DNA from: Alphaproteobacteria bacterium | GTDB taxonomy: Bacteria > Pseudomonadota > Alphaproteobacteria > DSM-16000 > Inquilinaceae | DNA: 64,000 nt | Reading direction: 5' to 3' | Assembly: GCA_028284045.1 (NCBI GenBank) | Contig: JANQSN010000063.1 | Location: 1 to 64,000, forward strand | Part shown: one piece after another, positions 6,278 through 50,195 of the stretch | Position numbering within the stretch: the first letter of the stretch is position 1 | How the letters are laid out: the number at the start of each line of letters is the position of its first letter | Program-made: the position numbers and the translations under genes | Notes under the pieces: model-generated | Databases searched by the model: none | What the model saw: only the letters and a program-made list of their open reading frames with translations | What the model was told of the DNA's origin: nothing

Positions 6278-7945
6278 TCAGGCGGGGACGCCCAGCTCCT
6301 CGCCGAAGAAGAAGTATTGCGGGTGCATCACATAGCCCGCCACCGCCTCGGCGAACACGGTGCTGATCGCCCGCCACACCGGCTGGGCGATCGGGCCGTC
6401 CTGCTGCATCAGGGTCTGGATGTCGCGGAAGACTTCCCGCCGCTCTCCCACATCCAGGGCCGCCGCCGCCTGGTCCAACAGGGCGTCGAACTCCGCGTTC
6501 GACCATTCTGGCGCGTTCCACGGCACGCCGGAGCGGAAGCCGAGATTGAGCACCGTCAGCCCGCCCGGCCGGTGCGCCCATTCCACGAAGCCCAGCGGCA
6601 CCTTGTCCCAGTTGTCCCAGAAGGTGGCGCCGGGGACGTTGTTGATGGCCATGTTGATGCCCGCTTCGGCGTATTGCTCGGCGATCACCTGCACCGCGGC
6701 CAGCTCCCACGGCGGATCGGCCTTGGCGGTCATGGTGATGTCGATGCCGTCGGGATAGCCGGCCTCCGCCAGCAGCGCGCGCGCCCGCTCCGGATCCCGT
6801 GTCATCTCGTCCAGCGGATAGTATTCGGGGTGGATCGGGCAGACGAAATGGTGCTCGGCCGGCAGGCCGCGGCCCTGCACCGCCAGCTCCAGGACGCGGT
6901 TGGAATCCATCGCGTAGCGCATGGCCAGCCGCACCCGCGGGTCGTCGAAGGGCGCCTCGGTGACCTTCATCTGCACGACCGAGGTGGCCGAGGTCACCGC
7001 GTTATGGACCACCAGACCCGGCATGTCGGCGACCACCGGCAAGAACTGAGCGTCGAGCTGGTAGAGCCCGTGCACTTGGCCCGAGGCGATGGCGGCGATC
7101 CAGGCCGACGGGTCGTCGCCGAGATCGACATATTCCAGCATGTCCAGCGCCGGGGCGCCGCCCCAGTAGTCGGGACGCGCCCGCAGGACCGCCCGCTCGC
7201 CGACGGCGACGTCCTCCAACGCGAACGGCCCGGTGCCGTTGGCGCCGGGGGCGAAGCTGCCGCCCTCCTCCGGATCCAGCATGATCATCGGGTAGAAGAA
7301 CAGGTCTTCCGGCAGCGTCACCGTCGGGGCCTTGAGGTTGAAGCGCACGGTTTTGTCGTCGACCTTCTCCACCGCGTTGGCGTCCCACAGCTCCATGGTG
7401 GTGACGGGGTTGCCGTCCTCGTCGGTCTCGCCGGTCTCCACCTCGTTCAGGAGATAGCTGCCGATCAGGCCGACGGCGGAGGATCCGGTCTCCGGCGCGA
7501 CGATATGGCCGATGTTCCAGATGACATCGTCGGCGGTGAAGGGCCGGCCGTTCGCCCAGGTGGCCTCGGGCCGCAGCCGGAAGGTCCAGGTGCGGATGTC
7601 GTCCGACGCCTCCCAGCTCGCCGCCAGCAGCGGTACCACCGTGTTGTCCTGGGTGATCCGGGTCAGGGTCTGCGCCACGTTCATGGTGATGTTGGCCGGC
7701 TGCACCCAGCTGATGGCGTGCGGGCTGGTCACTTCCATGACCCGCATGCCGATGCGCAGATGCCCGCCGCGCGGCAGGTCTTGCGCCCGCGCCGCGGCCA
7801 GCGGCGTCACCCCGGCAGCGGCCAGCGCGGCCCCGGCCGACAGGCCCAGGCAGGTCGACAGCGTCAGGAACTCGCGGCGGTCGAGACGTCCGCCTTTCAC
7901 GGCCTCTATAAGGCCCGGTAGGGCCGGATGTGACTTGCGCGCCAT
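6278..7945 (-). CDS. ABC transporter substrate-binding protein, peptide/nickel (family 5) type
   Basis: 555-residue periplasmic binding protein of the DppA/OppA family. It has a twin-arginine signal (RLDRREFLTL) followed by a hydrophobic Ala-rich helix, so it is probably exported folded by Tat. Family-5 features include the segment around TFRLRPEATWANGRPFTADDV and the later MRYAMDS..RVLE region. Its ligands may be peptides, opines or small amines. The ATG at 7945 has a clean AGAGGAAA ribosome site; the frame is open to 8023. No permease or ATPase genes lie next to it, so its transporter must be elsewhere or shared. The next gene on this strand is a methylated-glycine dehydrogenase, suggesting a linked substrate. 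Confidence 0.87.
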   Translation of the reverse strand: MARKSHPALPGLIEAVKGGRLDRREFLTLSTCLGLSAGAALAAAGVTPLAAARAQDLPRGGHLRIGMRVMEVTSPHAISWVQPANITMNVAQTLTRITQDNTVVPLLAASWEASDDIRTWTFRLRPEATWANGRPFTADDVIWNIGHIVAPETGSSAVGLIGSYLLNEVETGETDEDGNPVTTMELWDANAVEKVDDKTVRFNLKAPTVTLPEDLFFYPMIMLDPEEGGSFAPGANGTGPFALEDVAVGERAVLRARPDYWGGAPALDMLEYVDLGDDPSAWIAAIASGQVHGLYQLDAQFLPVVADMPGLVVHNAVTSATSVVQMKVTEAPFDDPRVRLAMRYAMDSNRVLELAVQGRGLPAEHHFVCPIHPEYYPLDEMTRDPERARALLAEAGYPDGIDITMTAKADPPWELAAVQVIAEQYAEAGINMAINNVPGATFWDNWDKVPLGFVEWAHRPGGLTVLNLGFRSGVPWNAPEWSNAEFDALLDQAAAALDVGERREVFRDIQTLMQQDGPIAQPVWRAISTVFAEAVAGYVMHPQYFFFGEELGVPA

Positions 7946-8227
7946 CCCTGTTTCCTCTTGGTGTTCGTTGACGGGGGCGGCTCCGCCCGGACGGACGGGC
8001 GCCGATCGAGAGCATACCCCCATGGCGCCCCCCTTGAACCCCCGATGCGCGTCTCCCGCTACCGGATGCGCGACAGTCTTGTCGGCGAGCCACTCACGTG
8101 ACTCGCCTTCTTGTTCCTCAATCGCCGGCGGGCCCCTCGCGGGCCCTTGGCTTTCGCGCCCATTGGGGCGCGGCGCCTCAACGGCGCATCCCGCGAGCCG
8201 ATGAATGGTCTCATCGGCCCGCTGGTA

Positions 8228-10645
8228 TCAGGCCCGCACGCGCGCGTTCTCCGGGTCGTAGCGGCAGGGCGGCACGACGCGGGCCGGGACGGCCTGGCCC
8301 AGCAGCAGGACGGCGAGGTCCGTGCCGTCCGTTGCCTGGTCGGGGTCGACGAAGGCCATGGCGAGGTTCTCGCCCACCCGATGACCCCAGGCGGCCGACG
8401 TGACGGTGCCGACCACCCGGTCGCCGGCCAGCACGCTGTCGCCCGGCTGGGCCGGCGCGTCGGTTGTGTCGAGCACCAGCGTGACGAAGCGGCGGCGCGG
8501 CGGCTGCCCCTGTCGGGCCAGCAAGGCCGCGCGGCCCGGGAAATCGGGCTTGTCGAGGCGCACGAAGCGGTCCAGCGCGCTCTCGAACGGGTCGTATTCG
8601 GTGATCAGGTCGGCGCGCCAGTGGCGGTAGCCCTTCTCGATGCGCATCGACTCCGCCGCGAACAGGCCGAAGGGCGCCATGTCGTAGGCTGCGCCCGCGT
8701 CGCACAGCACGGCGTAGGCGCCTGCGGCCTGCTCCACCGGCACATGGACCTCATAGGCCAGCTCCCCGGAATAGCTGACCGACATCGCCACCGCGGCGAC
8801 CGGGCCGACGAAGATGCGGCGCACCGACAGCCACGGGAAGTCCGTCCAATCGGTGCGCGGCGCCGCGGTCGCCATCACGTCGCGGGCGCGCGGGCCGGCC
8901 ACCACCAGGATGGTGTGGCTGGTGGTGCGCTCGGTCAGCCGGATCGACCCGTCTGCCGGCACGTGCCCGGCCAGCCAGTCCCAGTCATGCCGCGCCGCCG
9001 CGGCGGCGGAGCCCCACCAGACCGTCGCCTCGTCGAGGACAGCCAAGGTCGCCTCGCCCAGCACGTCGCCGCGGTCGGTCAGGCAGTAGGCGAGGCCGAC
9101 CCGGCCGACCCGGCGCGGCACCCGTCCGCACATCAGCCGGTCCAGCCAGTCGATGGCGCCGGCGCCCGTGATCTCGATGCGGTTGAAGCCGTTGACCTCC
9201 ATCAGGCCGACCCGGCTCTGCACGGCCGCCACCTCGCGGGCGACGACGTCATGCCAGCTCGGCCAGCGAAAGCTGGGGGTCTTCGGGAAGTCCGGCGTGG
9301 GCTTGAAGAAGCCCGCCCGCTCCCACCCATCGACCACGGCGAAGGCTGCGCCCCGCGCCGCCAGGATCGGCGTCAGCGGCGTGGTGCGCGCCGGCCGGCC
9401 GGCGGGCCGGTGCTCGTGCGGGCGGTGGAAGCGGAACTCGTTCTGATAGTCCTCGATCGCCTTCAAGGCCGTGTACTCGACGGTCGCATAGTCGGCGAAG
9501 CGCCTCGGGTCGAGGCACCAGGTGTCATAGATCGCCTGGCCGTGCACCATCTCCTGGGCCAGCAGCCAGCCATGCCCACCGCCTTCGCCCAGGCCGGCGC
9601 GCAAGCCGGTGATGCACCAGGCGTTGCGCCGGCCCGGCACCCGCCCGACCAGCGGCAGCCCGTCGGGCGTGTAGGTGATCGGGCCGTTGACGATGGTATG
9701 GATGCCGGCTTCCGTCAGGCAGGGCAGGCGGCGAAAGACGTTCTCCAGAACCGGCAGCACCCGGTCGGGGTCGTTCGGGCACAGCGCCATGGTGAACCCC
9801 GGATCGATGCCGTCCAGGCCCCAGGTCCGGCAGTCCTGCTCGTAGAAGCCGACCAGCAGGCCCTGCTTCTCCTGGCGGGCGTAGAAATCGTCGGCCGGGC
9901 AGCGGATCAGTGGCACGCGGTGGTCCAGCGCTTCGATGGCCGCCAGCGGCTCGGTCAGGAAGTATTGATGCTCCAGCGAGGCGACGGGATGGGTCACGCC
10001 CATCATCGCGCCCACCTCGTTGCAGCGGTAGCCGGCGGCGTTGACGATGTGCTGGGTGCGGATGTCGCCGCCGTCGGTATGCACGGTCCAGCGCCCGTCG
10101 TCGTGCTGGGTCAGTCCGGCGACGGGCGTGTGGCGGCGCACCTCCGCCCCGGCCTTGCGGGCGCGGCGCGCCAGCGCCTGGCAGAGCTGGGCGGGATCGA
10201 CATCGCCGTCCAGCGGATCCCACAGCGCGCCGGCCAGGCCGTCGGGGTCGACCAGCGGGTGCCGGCGGGCGCATTCCGCGGCGTCGAGGATCTCGAACTC
10301 GACGCCCATGCCCTTCGCCAGCGACTGGAAATGCCGGTAGCCGTCGAGATGTTCCGCCGTCGTCGCCAGGCGCAGGCCGCCGTCGCCATGGTGGTAGTTG
10401 ATCGGGTAGTCGGGGTCGTCCGCCAGTTCCTTGTAGAGGCGGATGGAGTGGCTCTTCAGCCCGACCATGGTCTGCACCGCGCCGAAATTGGTGACCTGGG
10501 CGGCGGAATGCCAGGTGGTGCCGGAGGTCAGCTCGTCGCGCTCCAGCAGCACGACATCGGTCCAGCCTTCCTGGGTCAGGTGATAGAGGGCGGAACAGCC
10601 GGCGATACCGCCGCCGATCACCACCGCGCGGGCCTCTGTGCGCAT
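8228..10645 (-). CDS. Dimethylglycine/sarcosine dehydrogenase-like FAD enzyme with GcvT domain
   Basis: 805-residue two-module flavoenzyme. The N-terminal DAO-type half (about 1-370) opens with a Rossmann FAD motif (VVIGGGIAGCSALYHL) and a GTTWH segment; the matching His in mammalian dimethylglycine and sarcosine dehydrogenases carries covalent FAD. A short FAO-M linker follows, then a GcvT aminomethyltransferase-type half (about 430-800) that binds folate and takes up the one-carbon unit. Likely reaction: oxidative N-demethylation of a methylated glycine to give methylene-tetrahydrofolate. Start: an in-frame TTG at 10666 is possible, but ATG at 10645 is more ordinary. The neighbouring MttB-family gene, divergently transcribed, supports a betaine/methylamine theme. 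Confidence 0.88.
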   Translation of the reverse strand: MRTEARAVVIGGGIAGCSALYHLTQEGWTDVVLLERDELTSGTTWHSAAQVTNFGAVQTMVGLKSHSIRLYKELADDPDYPINYHHGDGGLRLATTAEHLDGYRHFQSLAKGMGVEFEILDAAECARRHPLVDPDGLAGALWDPLDGDVDPAQLCQALARRARKAGAEVRRHTPVAGLTQHDDGRWTVHTDGGDIRTQHIVNAAGYRCNEVGAMMGVTHPVASLEHQYFLTEPLAAIEALDHRVPLIRCPADDFYARQEKQGLLVGFYEQDCRTWGLDGIDPGFTMALCPNDPDRVLPVLENVFRRLPCLTEAGIHTIVNGPITYTPDGLPLVGRVPGRRNAWCITGLRAGLGEGGGHGWLLAQEMVHGQAIYDTWCLDPRRFADYATVEYTALKAIEDYQNEFRFHRPHEHRPAGRPARTTPLTPILAARGAAFAVVDGWERAGFFKPTPDFPKTPSFRWPSWHDVVAREVAAVQSRVGLMEVNGFNRIEITGAGAIDWLDRLMCGRVPRRVGRVGLAYCLTDRGDVLGEATLAVLDEATVWWGSAAAAARHDWDWLAGHVPADGSIRLTERTTSHTILVVAGPRARDVMATAAPRTDWTDFPWLSVRRIFVGPVAAVAMSVSYSGELAYEVHVPVEQAAGAYAVLCDAGAAYDMAPFGLFAAESMRIEKGYRHWRADLITEYDPFESALDRFVRLDKPDFPGRAALLARQGQPPRRRFVTLVLDTTDAPAQPGDSVLAGDRVVGTVTSAAWGHRVGENLAMAFVDPDQATDGTDLAVLLLGQAVPARVVPPCRYDPENARVRA

Positions 10646-46962: not shown

Positions 46963-48390
46963 TCAGTGCGCCAGATAGCCGTGCGACGGGAACCGCGTGG
47001 TCGCATCGCCCAGCCACAGCCAGTCCGGCGGGGAGAACTGCATCACGTCGAGGCGACGATTGGTGAACAGCAGGACCGTGTTGATGTTGTAGACGATCTT
47101 GCACAGGTCCTGGATCTCCTCGTCGGAGATCTTGACCCCGGCCTTCCACAGGTCGCGGTTCGTGAAGAAGCCGAAATCGTCGTACATGCCGATGTCGAGC
47201 GCGCCGTCGGCGGCCAGTCCGTCCCAGATCTTCGAACCCGGGATGGTGTTGAACCATTGCAGGTAGATGCGCACGCCATAGCGGACCATCAGCGAACTGG
47301 CGAACTCGATGGTGCGCATGCAGTCGCCATGGGTCTCGAACGGGAAGCCGATGATGAACGAGAACACCGTCTCATGCGCGATTCCGGCGTCCTGCAGCCG
47401 CCGTGCTGCGTCCTGCAGGATCTTCGTCGTACAGCCCTTCTTGATCCGGCGCAGGCCCTCGTCGTAGCCGCATTCCGCGCCGATCAGCATATGGTTGGTG
47501 ATCGGCGCCAGCGCGTCGGCCACGCCGCCTTGCACGACATCGGTGGCGCGGGCGTCGATGGTCGCCTTGACCTCCAGGCCGCGGGTTTCCAGGGCGCGCG
47601 TGATCTCGCACACCCGGTCGTTGTCGTAGGTGTAGAGGTCGTCGACGAAGCTGAACACCTGATGCGTGGTGCGCGCGAGGTATGGGGCCATGCGCTCCAA
47701 CCGGGCGACGAAGGTGTCGGCGCCGATGCCGCGCCAGGAGCCGCGGAACTTGGTGGAGCAGAAGGTGCAGTTGAAGCGGCAGCCGCGCGCCGACTCCACC
47801 GACAGGGATTCGTAGACACCCCACGGCAGCAGGTCGTAGGCCGGATCGGGCAGGTCCTCCAGAGCGGGGACGCTGAGCATCGTCGCCGGGTCGCGGAAGA
47901 TCGGCCCCTCGGCGCTGCGCCGGCACAAGCTGGGCACCGCGTCCAGCGATCCGCGGCCCGACAGCGCGTCGAGCAGCGCCAGGAAGGGCTGTTCGCCCTC
48001 GCCGCGGACGATGTAGTCGACGGCGGTGACGGCGAAGACATGGGCCGGGTAATGCGTGCCGTGCAGCCCGCCCAGCACCACCGGCAGATCCGGATGGGCG
48101 TCCTTCACCGCGGCGATCACCCGCTTCGCCGAAGGCCAGCTCAGCGAATTCGCCGAGACGCCGACCAGGTCGACCGCGCCGGCGCGCGTGGCGATCTCCG
48201 CCGGGTCGAGCCGGCCGGCGGCGATCAGGTCGAGCATGTCGACCTCATGGCCGGCGTGCCTCAGGATGGCGGTCAGCCAGTAGACGCCCAGCGGCGGACT
48301 GGTCCGGTTGCGATCCATGGCGATCGGCGCCAGCGTGCCGGCGTCGTCGATGTAATCCATCATGGGGGCGGGGATCAGAAGGACACGCAT
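46963..48390 (-). CDS. Cobalamin-binding radical SAM enzyme
   Basis: 475 residues. An N-terminal B12-binding Rossmann domain (about 1-140, VGVSANSLSWPSAKRVI and VVLGGLHGTHYPAHV) is followed by the radical SAM barrel with the cluster motif C204-RFN-C208-TF-C211. The C-terminal part (about 400-475) is unlike SPASM or Twitch domains. B12-radical SAM proteins methylate unactivated carbons or rearrange rings. The gene lies 106 bases after a small leader-type gene, suggesting peptide modification rather than small-molecule work. ATG 48390 opens the domain; the upstream frame to 48453 does not. Substrate unproven. Confidence 0.9.
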   Translation of the reverse strand: MRVLLIPAPMMDYIDDAGTLAPIAMDRNRTSPPLGVYWLTAILRHAGHEVDMLDLIAAGRLDPAEIATRAGAVDLVGVSANSLSWPSAKRVIAAVKDAHPDLPVVLGGLHGTHYPAHVFAVTAVDYIVRGEGEQPFLALLDALSGRGSLDAVPSLCRRSAEGPIFRDPATMLSVPALEDLPDPAYDLLPWGVYESLSVESARGCRFNCTFCSTKFRGSWRGIGADTFVARLERMAPYLARTTHQVFSFVDDLYTYDNDRVCEITRALETRGLEVKATIDARATDVVQGGVADALAPITNHMLIGAECGYDEGLRRIKKGCTTKILQDAARRLQDAGIAHETVFSFIIGFPFETHGDCMRTIEFASSLMVRYGVRIYLQWFNTIPGSKIWDGLAADGALDIGMYDDFGFFTNRDLWKAGVKISDEEIQDLCKIVYNINTVLLFTNRRLDVMQFSPPDWLWLGDATTRFPSHGYLAH

Positions 48391-48496
48391 CGGCCGGAAC
48401 TCCCGATGCCTGCCGTGGGGCTTCGGCAGGCGGCTGGTGGGATCGCGTGACAAGCGGGGGTGGGCAACGGGCCGGTGCGCCCGTTGCCCGGTCCGC

Positions 48497-48919
48497 CTAC
48501 AGGTCCCGCATCTTCAGCGTTTCCGCGAAGGACAGCTCTTCCAGCGTCTTCGCCCGGACGGCGAAGGTGCTGGAGCCGGTGACGACGTTGACGCCGACCC
48601 GCACACCCGGCTGGGTGCCCGGATTGGTGCCGACGCGGATGGCGGGCGCGACGCCGGGCGTGGCCAGCGCGGCCACGCCGGCCCCGCCGCCGGCGCTCTC
48701 CAGGGCTTCGGCGATCAACGCGGGGTTGATCTTGCGCCGCACCTCCTCCGAAACGGTGATCCCGGCCTCCGCCAGGAACTCCGCGGGGTTCTCCTCGAAC
48801 GCCTTGCGGAACTCCTTGTTCGCCGAGAGGTCGTGGAACAGTCGGGCGAGGATGGCCGGATCGGCATCGACGCTAACGGAACCGGATTGCAGGACAACCC
48901 GGGGGGCACCTTCTTTCAT
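48497..48919 (-). CDS. Possible RiPP precursor with nitrile-hydratase-like leader
   Basis: 140 residues. The N-terminal part (about 19-62) reads like an NHLP leader: ILARLFHDLSANKEFRKAF, then ENPAEFLAEAGITVSEEV. A helical bridge ends at a Gly-Gly-Gly stretch (77-79), a possible cleavage point. The C-terminal part (80-140) has RVG repeats with Asn/Thr/Gly/Pro (RVGTNPGTQPGVRVGVNVVTG), then a helical end. A GAGGAG site precedes ATG 48919, and a clear promoter lies upstream. Placed before a B12-radical SAM gene, it fits a ribosomal peptide made for modification. It could instead be an unrelated small regulatory protein. Confidence 0.55.
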   Translation of the reverse strand: MKEGAPRVVLQSGSVSVDADPAILARLFHDLSANKEFRKAFEENPAEFLAEAGITVSEEVRRKINPALIAEALESAGGGAGVAALATPGVAPAIRVGTNPGTQPGVRVGVNVVTGSSTFAVRAKTLEELSFAETLKMRDL

Positions 48920-48958: not shown

Positions 48959-48986
48959 ATCATACGATATCATATCTTTCAATCAA
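48959..48986 (-). promoter_or_regulatory. Promoter of the leader-peptide/radical SAM operon
   Basis: On the minus strand, TTGATT (-35) and TATGAT (-10) are 16 bases apart, 40 bases before the start codon, inside a 270-base AT-rich intergenic region. The -10 is part of a direct repeat TATGATA-TCG-TATGATA, a possible regulator site. AT-richness stands out from the surrounding GC-rich DNA. Confidence 0.6.
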
Positions 48987-49190
48987 AAAGGGTTAAAACA
49001 ACATTAAATTACAATATAACTTTGTGTCTCCTCAGAGTTACGATTGAATGTCGGGCATTATAAGCTCATATTGACTCTCTATTAGCGCTAAAATGTTTGT
49101 GTATCCGCTGATGTTGCAGTGATTAGAACAAATGATGCATGGAGCCCGAACAGGACTCCGACCCGTCGGTGAAGGAAAAGGGAGGGCAGG

Positions 49191-49895
49191 TTGGGGGCTC
49201 GGTCGTCATTCATCTCCTTCGCGGCGGCGGTTTGCGTCGCCGTGTTGCTGCCGGCCTTGCTGCTGCTTGCGGAGGGACGGTGGCCATGGTTGGCCTGGGG
49301 GGCGGTCGCTTGGGTGATCGCCATCGTCTTGAAGATCCCGGCGAGCATCCTGGTGGCCGTCGTCCTCAACCGCGCCGGGAAGGTGGCGCAGAACGTGGCG
49401 CTCGGCCTGGTCTCCGCGGCCTCGGAGTTGGGGGTCGCCGCCGCCATCCTGGTCTACGCGGCGGATCGGCCGCTGAGCACCGCGGACCTGGCACTGTTCG
49501 CGGTGGCCGCCGGGGCGACGGAGTTGTTGGTGCTGGCGGCGGTCGCGCTGTTCGCCAAGACCGACGAGGCCGTGGTGGCCCGCTGGCAGGCGGGTGCGCG
49601 CGCCTCGCTGCTGGTGCGCCACACCTTCTTCGTGGAGCGGATGATCGCGCTGGCCGGGCACAGCGGGTCGCGCGGCCTGGTCGGCCTGACGGTGCTGGGT
49701 GGGCCGGTCTGGGCGGCGGCGATCGCGGTCGTCGGCTTCGCGGCGACCGACGGCCTGGCCGGCTATGGCCAGGCGCGCGGCTGGGACTGGTCGGACCCGG
49801 CGCTGTGTCGGCGCGCCTTCGGCGCCTTCGCTGCCGTCTCCGCGGTCGAGCTGGGCGCGTTCCTGGCGCTCCTGTGGTCGGCCCCGGCCGCGTGA
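49191..49895 (+). CDS. Multi-spanning membrane protein, possibly YhfC-like
   Basis: 234 residues with about six membrane helices. The TTG start at 49191 has AAGGGAGGG before it. A mid segment FFVERMIALAGHSGSRGLVGL contains the Glu-Arg and His spacing seen in YhfC-type proteins, a group proposed to be glutamic intramembrane proteases; the match is weak and the other motif (SELG) is degenerate. It is divergent from the leader-peptide gene. Role unknown; a processing role for that peptide is only a possibility. Confidence 0.6.
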   Translation: MGARSSFISFAAAVCVAVLLPALLLLAEGRWPWLAWGAVAWVIAIVLKIPASILVAVVLNRAGKVAQNVALGLVSAASELGVAAAILVYAADRPLSTADLALFAVAAGATELLVLAAVALFAKTDEAVVARWQAGARASLLVRHTFFVERMIALAGHSGSRGLVGLTVLGGPVWAAAIAVVGFAATDGLAGYGQARGWDWSDPALCRRAFGAFAAVSAVELGAFLALLWSAPAA

Positions 49896-50024: not shown

Positions 50025-50111
50025 GCCCAGGTGGCGGAATTGGTAGACGCGCAGGTTTCAGGTACCTGTGGCCGCAAGGCCGTGGAAGTTCGAGTCTTCT
50101 CCTGGGCACCA
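50025..50111 (+). tRNA. tRNA-Leu (CAG anticodon)
   Basis: 87 bases with a 7-bp acceptor stem (GCCCAGG with CCTGGGC), D-arm with GGTAGAC, anticodon loop TTCAGGT giving CAG (reads CUG), a class II long variable arm (TGGCCGCAAGGCCGT), T-arm with TTCGAGT, discriminator A and encoded CCA. It reads the most-used Leu codon of GC-rich genomes. Confidence 0.97.
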
Positions 50112-50115
50112 TACT

Positions 50116-50195
50116 TATCTGCGCTATCGGGCGTTGCCCTGCTTGAGCGCGAGTCTATCTGCGCTATCGGGCGTTGCCCTGCTTGAGCGCGGGTC
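50116..50195 (+). repeat. Two tandem 40-base hairpin repeats behind tRNA-Leu
   Basis: Two near-identical 40-base units (one mismatch, near the 3' end) start five bases after the tRNA CCA. Each folds as GCGCT...AGCGC enclosing GGGC-GTT-GCCC. The next 30 bases contain GCGGGT ... ACCCGC followed by ACCA, with a small GGAG/CTCC hairpin inside, like a degenerate acceptor stem. This could be a tRNA transcript trailer or the trace of an old insertion. Confidence 0.75.

Follow-up and report, generated by a model that had tools for sequence, protein, structure and literature searches.

A putative peptide-modifying cassette with a leader-type precursor gene, a cobalamin-dependent radical SAM enzyme and a YhfC-like membrane protein in an alphaproteobacterium of the Inquilinaceae

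Known leader–enzyme pairs and the locus under study

Nitrile hydratase-like leader peptides (NHLPs) combined with cobalamin (B12)-dependent radical S-adenosylmethionine (SAM) C-methyltransferases are known from proteusins, such as polytheonamide with its enzymes PoyB and PoyC. A locus of related composition was analyzed in a 64,000-nucleotide stretch of an alphaproteobacterium of the family Inquilinaceae (assembly GCA_028284045.1, contig JANQSN010000063.1, positions 1 to 64,000), the whole of which is referred to here as the window. The locus comprises a precursor-type gene, the gene of a B12-dependent radical SAM enzyme directly downstream of it and a divergent gene encoding a membrane protein (Table 1). 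These genes probably form a cassette of the kind that produces ribosomally synthesized and post-translationally modified peptides (RiPPs), in which the enzyme would modify the tail of the precursor.

In common with proteusins, the locus has a long nitrile hydratase-like leader, a Gly-Gly pair near the leader end, a B12-dependent radical SAM enzyme and a Val-rich tail, whereas it differs from them in having a single enzyme, which lies outside the TIGR03975 family, a short conserved tail and a membrane partner, and in lacking an adjacent protease or transporter. The initial annotation of the window had seen here a leader peptide with a B12-dependent radical SAM modification system, and the recurrence of the pair in two other phyla supports this, with C-methylation, also suggested there, as the proposed reaction. 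The statement that the system was of a kind not recognized before was too strong in view of the proteusins. Thus, the cassette is a variant of the NHLP and B12-dependent radical SAM kind, and the conserved tail and the YhfC-like partner are its distinctive elements.

The radical SAM enzyme of epipeptide cassettes is not a B12 enzyme. Like the window locus, epipeptide cassettes with the intramembrane M50 protease EpeP pair a precursor with a single radical SAM enzyme and a single protein of the intramembrane protease type (PMC10885120); the protease is of the M50 type there and YhfC-like in the window, and the likeness is meant as an analogy only and not as a claim of sequence relation. Membrane proteases also act in other small peptide systems, namely, EpeP and MroQ (PMC10885120) and TmcP with its escort TmcE (PMC13252029), which are functional analogues and not relatives.

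Precursor gene and its conserved tail

The precursor gene begins with an ATG codon preceded by an AGGAG ribosome-binding site and is separated by 106 bp from the enzyme gene on the same strand; the open reading frames, strands, gap and cluster motif (residues 204–211) were all as first annotated. The NHLP-like leader proposed in that annotation was matched by three RiPP leader models, namely, TIGR04509 (E-value = 2 × 10−5, 24.4 bits, cut-off 34), NF038399 (E-value = 3 × 10−4, 20.8 bits, cut-off 40) and TIGR03793 (E-value = 4 × 10−4, 20.3 bits, cut-off 50.9), so that the signal of an NHLP-clan leader is weak but reproducible. A profile of the leader showed a weak likeness to subunits of thiocyanate hydrolase and nitrile hydratase in the expected stretch (E-value = 0.15–0.55), and no non-RiPP family was matched by the precursor in the comparison with family models, in agreement with its first assignment. 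In the AlphaFold model, computed from a three-sequence alignment, the leader was helical with short strands at low to middle confidence (predicted local distance difference test (pLDDT) of 50–69 in blocks through residue 60 and of 54 and 43 thereafter), and the tail was predicted, at low confidence, to be disordered beyond residue 80 (pLDDT of about 30). The fold search with this model gave nothing significant; its list of weak matches included Os1348, the borosin precursor SonA and a proteusin precursor.

No relatives of the precursor were found in 96 related genomes, in a plasmid set or in a set of contigs from 84,980 species, the last of which was scanned with exact short peptide words that miss diverged copies. 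They came to light only through a scan with the enzyme, which yielded three enzyme relatives at 57–59% identity and two distant ones. In Luteitalea (Acidobacteria; locus L006) and in a metagenome-assembled genome of Clostridiaceae (L007), a precursor homologue, found once in each genome by profile search, lies directly upstream of the enzyme on the same strand, at distances of 83 and 66 bases, respectively. Consequently, the leader-type gene is followed directly by a B12-dependent radical SAM gene at all three loci that hold it, in unrelated phyla, and no copy of the small gene without the enzyme, an arrangement that the initial annotation had named as contrary to its reading, was seen. In Myxococcus sp. 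CA023 (L008, 7361–9353), the first 58 residues of the enzyme are missing and its remainder is joined to the reversed membrane gene, the precursor gene and its promoter region being gone; a second genome of Myxococcota (G235, L080, approximately 7868–8653) carries a still shorter remnant of the enzyme and membrane genes. We read both as decayed copies of the divergent arrangement present in the window.

In Luteitalea (L006, 3451–7004, plus strand), a gene of an APH-type kinase overlaps a HopA1-LanC fusion gene directly upstream of the precursor homologue and on the same strand. The kinase matched the class V lanthipeptide LxmK model below its cut-off (E-value = 1.8 × 10−27). Since the Luteitalea precursor has no Cys, this pair could at most dehydrate Thr or Ser of the precursor, or it could serve another peptide. 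Such a kinase and HopA1-LanC protein are absent from the window, and the HopA1 domain is absent from the genome of the window organism, which places the pair outside the core cassette.

Across the three close precursors, the tail block (residues 88–110) had a mean identity of 71% with 14 of 23 residues invariant, whereas the leader (residues 1–77) was 37% identical with 18 of 77 residues invariant; a GG pair is present near residues 76–78 in all three, and conservation does not extend to the last 17 residues. The tail motif RVGTxPGTxPGVxVGV is rich in Gly, Val, Pro and Thr. Two more distant enzyme relatives, L009 (33% identity) and L078 from an alphaproteobacterium (38%), are also preceded by genes with NHLP-clan leaders, that of L078 matching TIGR04509 and NF038399 on its own (E-value = 5 × 10−5 to 8 × 10−5). 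Their tails, GPQYIVAVAVVAAIF in L009 and GVVAVAIGVTIVLSGVAVAVVVII in L078, are hydrophobic, Val/Ala-rich and unrelated to the tail in the window. The enzyme group therefore seems, provisionally, to act on precursors in which NHLP-clan leaders are combined with exchangeable tails, of which the window type keeps one, and the conservation of this tail hints at one conserved product and not a fast-changing toxin. The neighborhood comparison suggested with the initial annotation thus gave the expected co-occurrence, whereas the variable tails it foresaw were found in the distant relatives and not in the close family; likewise, a tail as conserved as the leader, named there as an argument against a RiPP, is seen in the close family and not in the distant relatives. 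In L078 (7210–9344, minus strand), the tail of the precursor consists of a membrane-spanning run of Val, Ala and Ile and then RRRRR, and the pair adjoins an apparent nar-type nitrate reductase operon.

The conservation of the tail block above the leader over three phyla, together with the lack of an adjacent transporter and of a clearly active protease, would also fit a small protein that stays in or on the cell as a scaffold, sensor or cofactor protein, its tail being modified by the enzyme and its leader forming part of the mature protein. We consider this unlikely, as the leader comes from a clan known in RiPP precursors, distant relatives of the enzyme carry quite different tails behind similar leaders, and conservation is lacking in the 17 residues at the C-terminus.

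Table 1. Features of the cassette and their positions in the window
Feature	Position	Strand	Remarks
Precursor-type gene	48497..48919	-	140 aa; without Cys, Tyr, Trp
Leader region, residues 1–77	48689..48919	-	NHLP-clan leader models
Conserved tail block PGVAPAIRVGTNPGTQPGVRVGV, residues 88–110	48590..48658	-	predicted disordered (pLDDT ~30)
11-bp perfect hairpin directly 3' of the precursor stop codon	48462..48489	-	z = -2.95, whole gap
B12-binding radical SAM enzyme	46963..48390	-	475 aa
Cobalamin-binding domain, residues 31–139	47974..48300	-	Pfam B12-binding, E-value = 2.5e-19
CxxxCxxC radical SAM cluster motif, residues 204–211	47758..47781	-	
Promoter-like hexamers upstream of the precursor gene	48959..48996	-	sigma-70-like; 2 found vs. 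0.2 expected
Membrane protein, degenerate YhfC-like	49191..49895	+	234 aa; TTG start, AGGGAGG ribosome site

Enzyme, membrane partner and candidate mechanism

The enzyme is of the B12-dependent radical SAM type, with a cobalamin-binding domain followed by a radical SAM domain (Pfam Radical_SAM, E-value = 1 × 10−14) that holds the CxxxCxxC motif. As first annotated, it has no SPASM domain in Pfam and is not of the ocin maturase type (TIGR03975, 44.8 bits, cut-off 281.85). Among models of characterized enzymes, ApyD (NF050148) scored best, with 116.8 bits, far below its cut-off of 750 bits, and the NCBIfam scores for the oxidative cyclase BchE and for hopanoid enzymes were similar in size. The nearest solved structure by profile was that of the ring-contracting enzyme OxsB. 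The sole PADLOC match, PDC-M51A (40 bits), spans only the generic B12-dependent radical SAM part and no other defense gene is adjacent; a role in defense was thus rejected.

The BchE and hopanoid scores could also be taken to mean that the substrate of the enzyme is a lipid or small molecule, as it is for HpnR, HpnJ and BchE, and that the small gene is an unrelated neighbor. This is very improbable, because the small gene lies directly upstream at three of three loci in unrelated phyla with both leader and tail conserved, and because RiPP leader models match it.

Since the window precursor contains no Cys, Tyr or Trp, mainly aliphatic C–H chemistry is left, and Val, Pro and Thr are on offer in the conserved tail. 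Thioether (lanthionine, sactipeptide), thiazole and Tyr cross-link chemistry were ruled out for this precursor on the same grounds. Val, Ile, Pro and Phe are residues methylated by known B12-dependent radical SAM enzymes of RiPP pathways, PoyC and those of bottromycin among them (PMC11285071), and ApyD of the aminopyruvatides is a peptide Tyr Cβ-methyltransferase (PMC11117315); the latter acts on Tyr, which the window precursor lacks, and carries a RiPP recognition element. Because C-methylation is what the known peptide-acting enzymes of this type perform, it is the favored reaction, with about an even chance of being the one catalyzed here. Another B12-radical reaction on the aliphatic Thr, Pro or Val residues of the tail, such as C–C ring formation, desaturation or oxidative cleavage, is suggested by the position of the enzyme outside the named NCBIfam subfamilies, by a BchE score nearly equal to that for ApyD and by the profile likeness to OxsB. 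We regard such a reaction as possible, if rather less probable than methylation, given that the peptide-acting enzymes reviewed are C-methyltransferases (PMC11285071, PMC11117315).

The membrane gene was correctly described at first as divergent and weakly protease-like, whereas it was taken for a mere neighbor. A homologue with 39% identity lies beside the enzyme in Luteitalea, on the same strand and downstream, and a remnant in Myxococcus is divergent beside the enzyme, as in the window; on the basis of these two loci, the membrane gene is assigned to the cassette as its third member. In the Clostridiaceae locus, no homologue is present downstream, and the upstream side is cut off by the end of the contig, 107 bases from the precursor. 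The Luteitalea copy matched PF10086 (YhfC) weakly (14.2 bits, E-value = 0.031, cut-off 24.2) and is the sole PF10086-like stretch in that genome; the window copy gave no match. In hhalign, the membrane profile scored 28–31 against three true YhfC proteins, compared with 13.7 for the reversed profile and no more than 20.6 for 60 block shuffles. The alignment was collinear (WGA...KIP, then AGxxE opposite GHGGxE, then ERxxxxxxH). The YhfC motif set (EE..R, GHGGxE, ER......H and a final H) is incomplete: the Glu of GxxE, the ER pair and one His are kept, and two His are lost. The protein thus resembles a YhfC intramembrane metalloprotease in a degenerate form. Its structure model was poor (mean pLDDT of 59), and the fold search gave no significant match.

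In the proposed mechanism, the small gene would encode the precursor, whose folded NHLP-type leader would recruit the radical SAM enzyme. With cobalamin, SAM and a [4Fe-4S] cluster, the enzyme would then modify the disordered tail, most likely by methylating unactivated carbons, such as the β-carbon of Val or carbons of Pro or Thr. The membrane protein may receive the modified peptide at the membrane and separate its tail from the leader; alternatively, it may serve as an escort, export partner or immunity protein.

Several points weigh against this interpretation. B12-dependent radical SAM enzymes also carry out ring and other chemistry. The enzyme lies far under all NCBIfam cut-offs and fits no named NCBIfam subfamily, so methylation stays a proposed reaction, and every leader-family score is under its curated cut-off. 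The membrane protein has lost the GHGG His and the final His of YhfC, which makes proteolysis by it doubtful. No C39 peptidase or ABC transporter adjoins the window cassette, the lack of an adjacent transporter having been noted from the start, and no C39 or C1A protease occurs among the neighboring window genes examined. Finally, the tail appears more conserved than the leader, a provisional result from three sequences and the reverse of the pattern of NHLPs, for which a hypervariable core has been described (PMC2887384).

Genomic setting, spread and significance

The precursor gene appears to have its own AT-rich promoter, as proposed initially: the divergent gap 5' of it has a GC content of 45–47% against about 70%, and two sigma-70-like matches fall within it. 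The hairpin after its stop codon is a possible attenuator or mRNA stabilizer; none was seen in the Luteitalea or Clostridiaceae loci. The cassette is flanked by folB on one side and by a tRNA-Leu gene (50025–50111) on the other. Acquired genes commonly lie at such tRNA sites. Immediately after the tRNA-Leu(CAG) gene come two 40-bp repeats in tandem, with 98% identity (50025–50195 in all, plus strand). An empty-site comparison based on rsgA showed that the surrounding neighborhood is not kept in the family.

Among 17 genomes of the host's family, no close relative was found besides the window genome, and a search of approximately 1,800 genomes of the host class and phylum and of the relatives' phyla added no close intact member to those named; viral contigs held only distant B12-dependent radical SAM proteins (21–33% identity). 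The cassette is rare. The enzymes of four phyla share 55–69% identity, and this, together with the patchy distribution, suggests that it was probably acquired horizontally. In the Clostridiaceae contig, a serine recombinase gene (L007, 2481–3884, plus strand) lies about 490 bases downstream of the precursor–enzyme pair, in keeping with mobility.

Peptide-acting B12-dependent radical SAM enzymes introduce modifications that chemical synthesis achieves only with difficulty; to our knowledge, few of these enzymes have been tested. The cassette is small and lends itself to direct testing: the candidate substrate is defined, its short conserved motif lacks Cys, Tyr and Trp, and there are just two partners. 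As a tentative and rather doubtful extension, it may represent a new family of RiPPs whose core hardly varies, spread horizontally over at least three phyla, in which aliphatic C–H chemistry on RVGTxPGTxPGVxVGV and a pseudo-protease membrane escort would yield a conserved signal, metal-handling or cofactor-like peptide and not an arms-race toxin. The conserved core in unrelated bacteria raises the question of which peptide merits staying unchanged over phyla, and the eroded YhfC-like partner raises the question of whether intramembrane protease folds are reused as peptide escorts.
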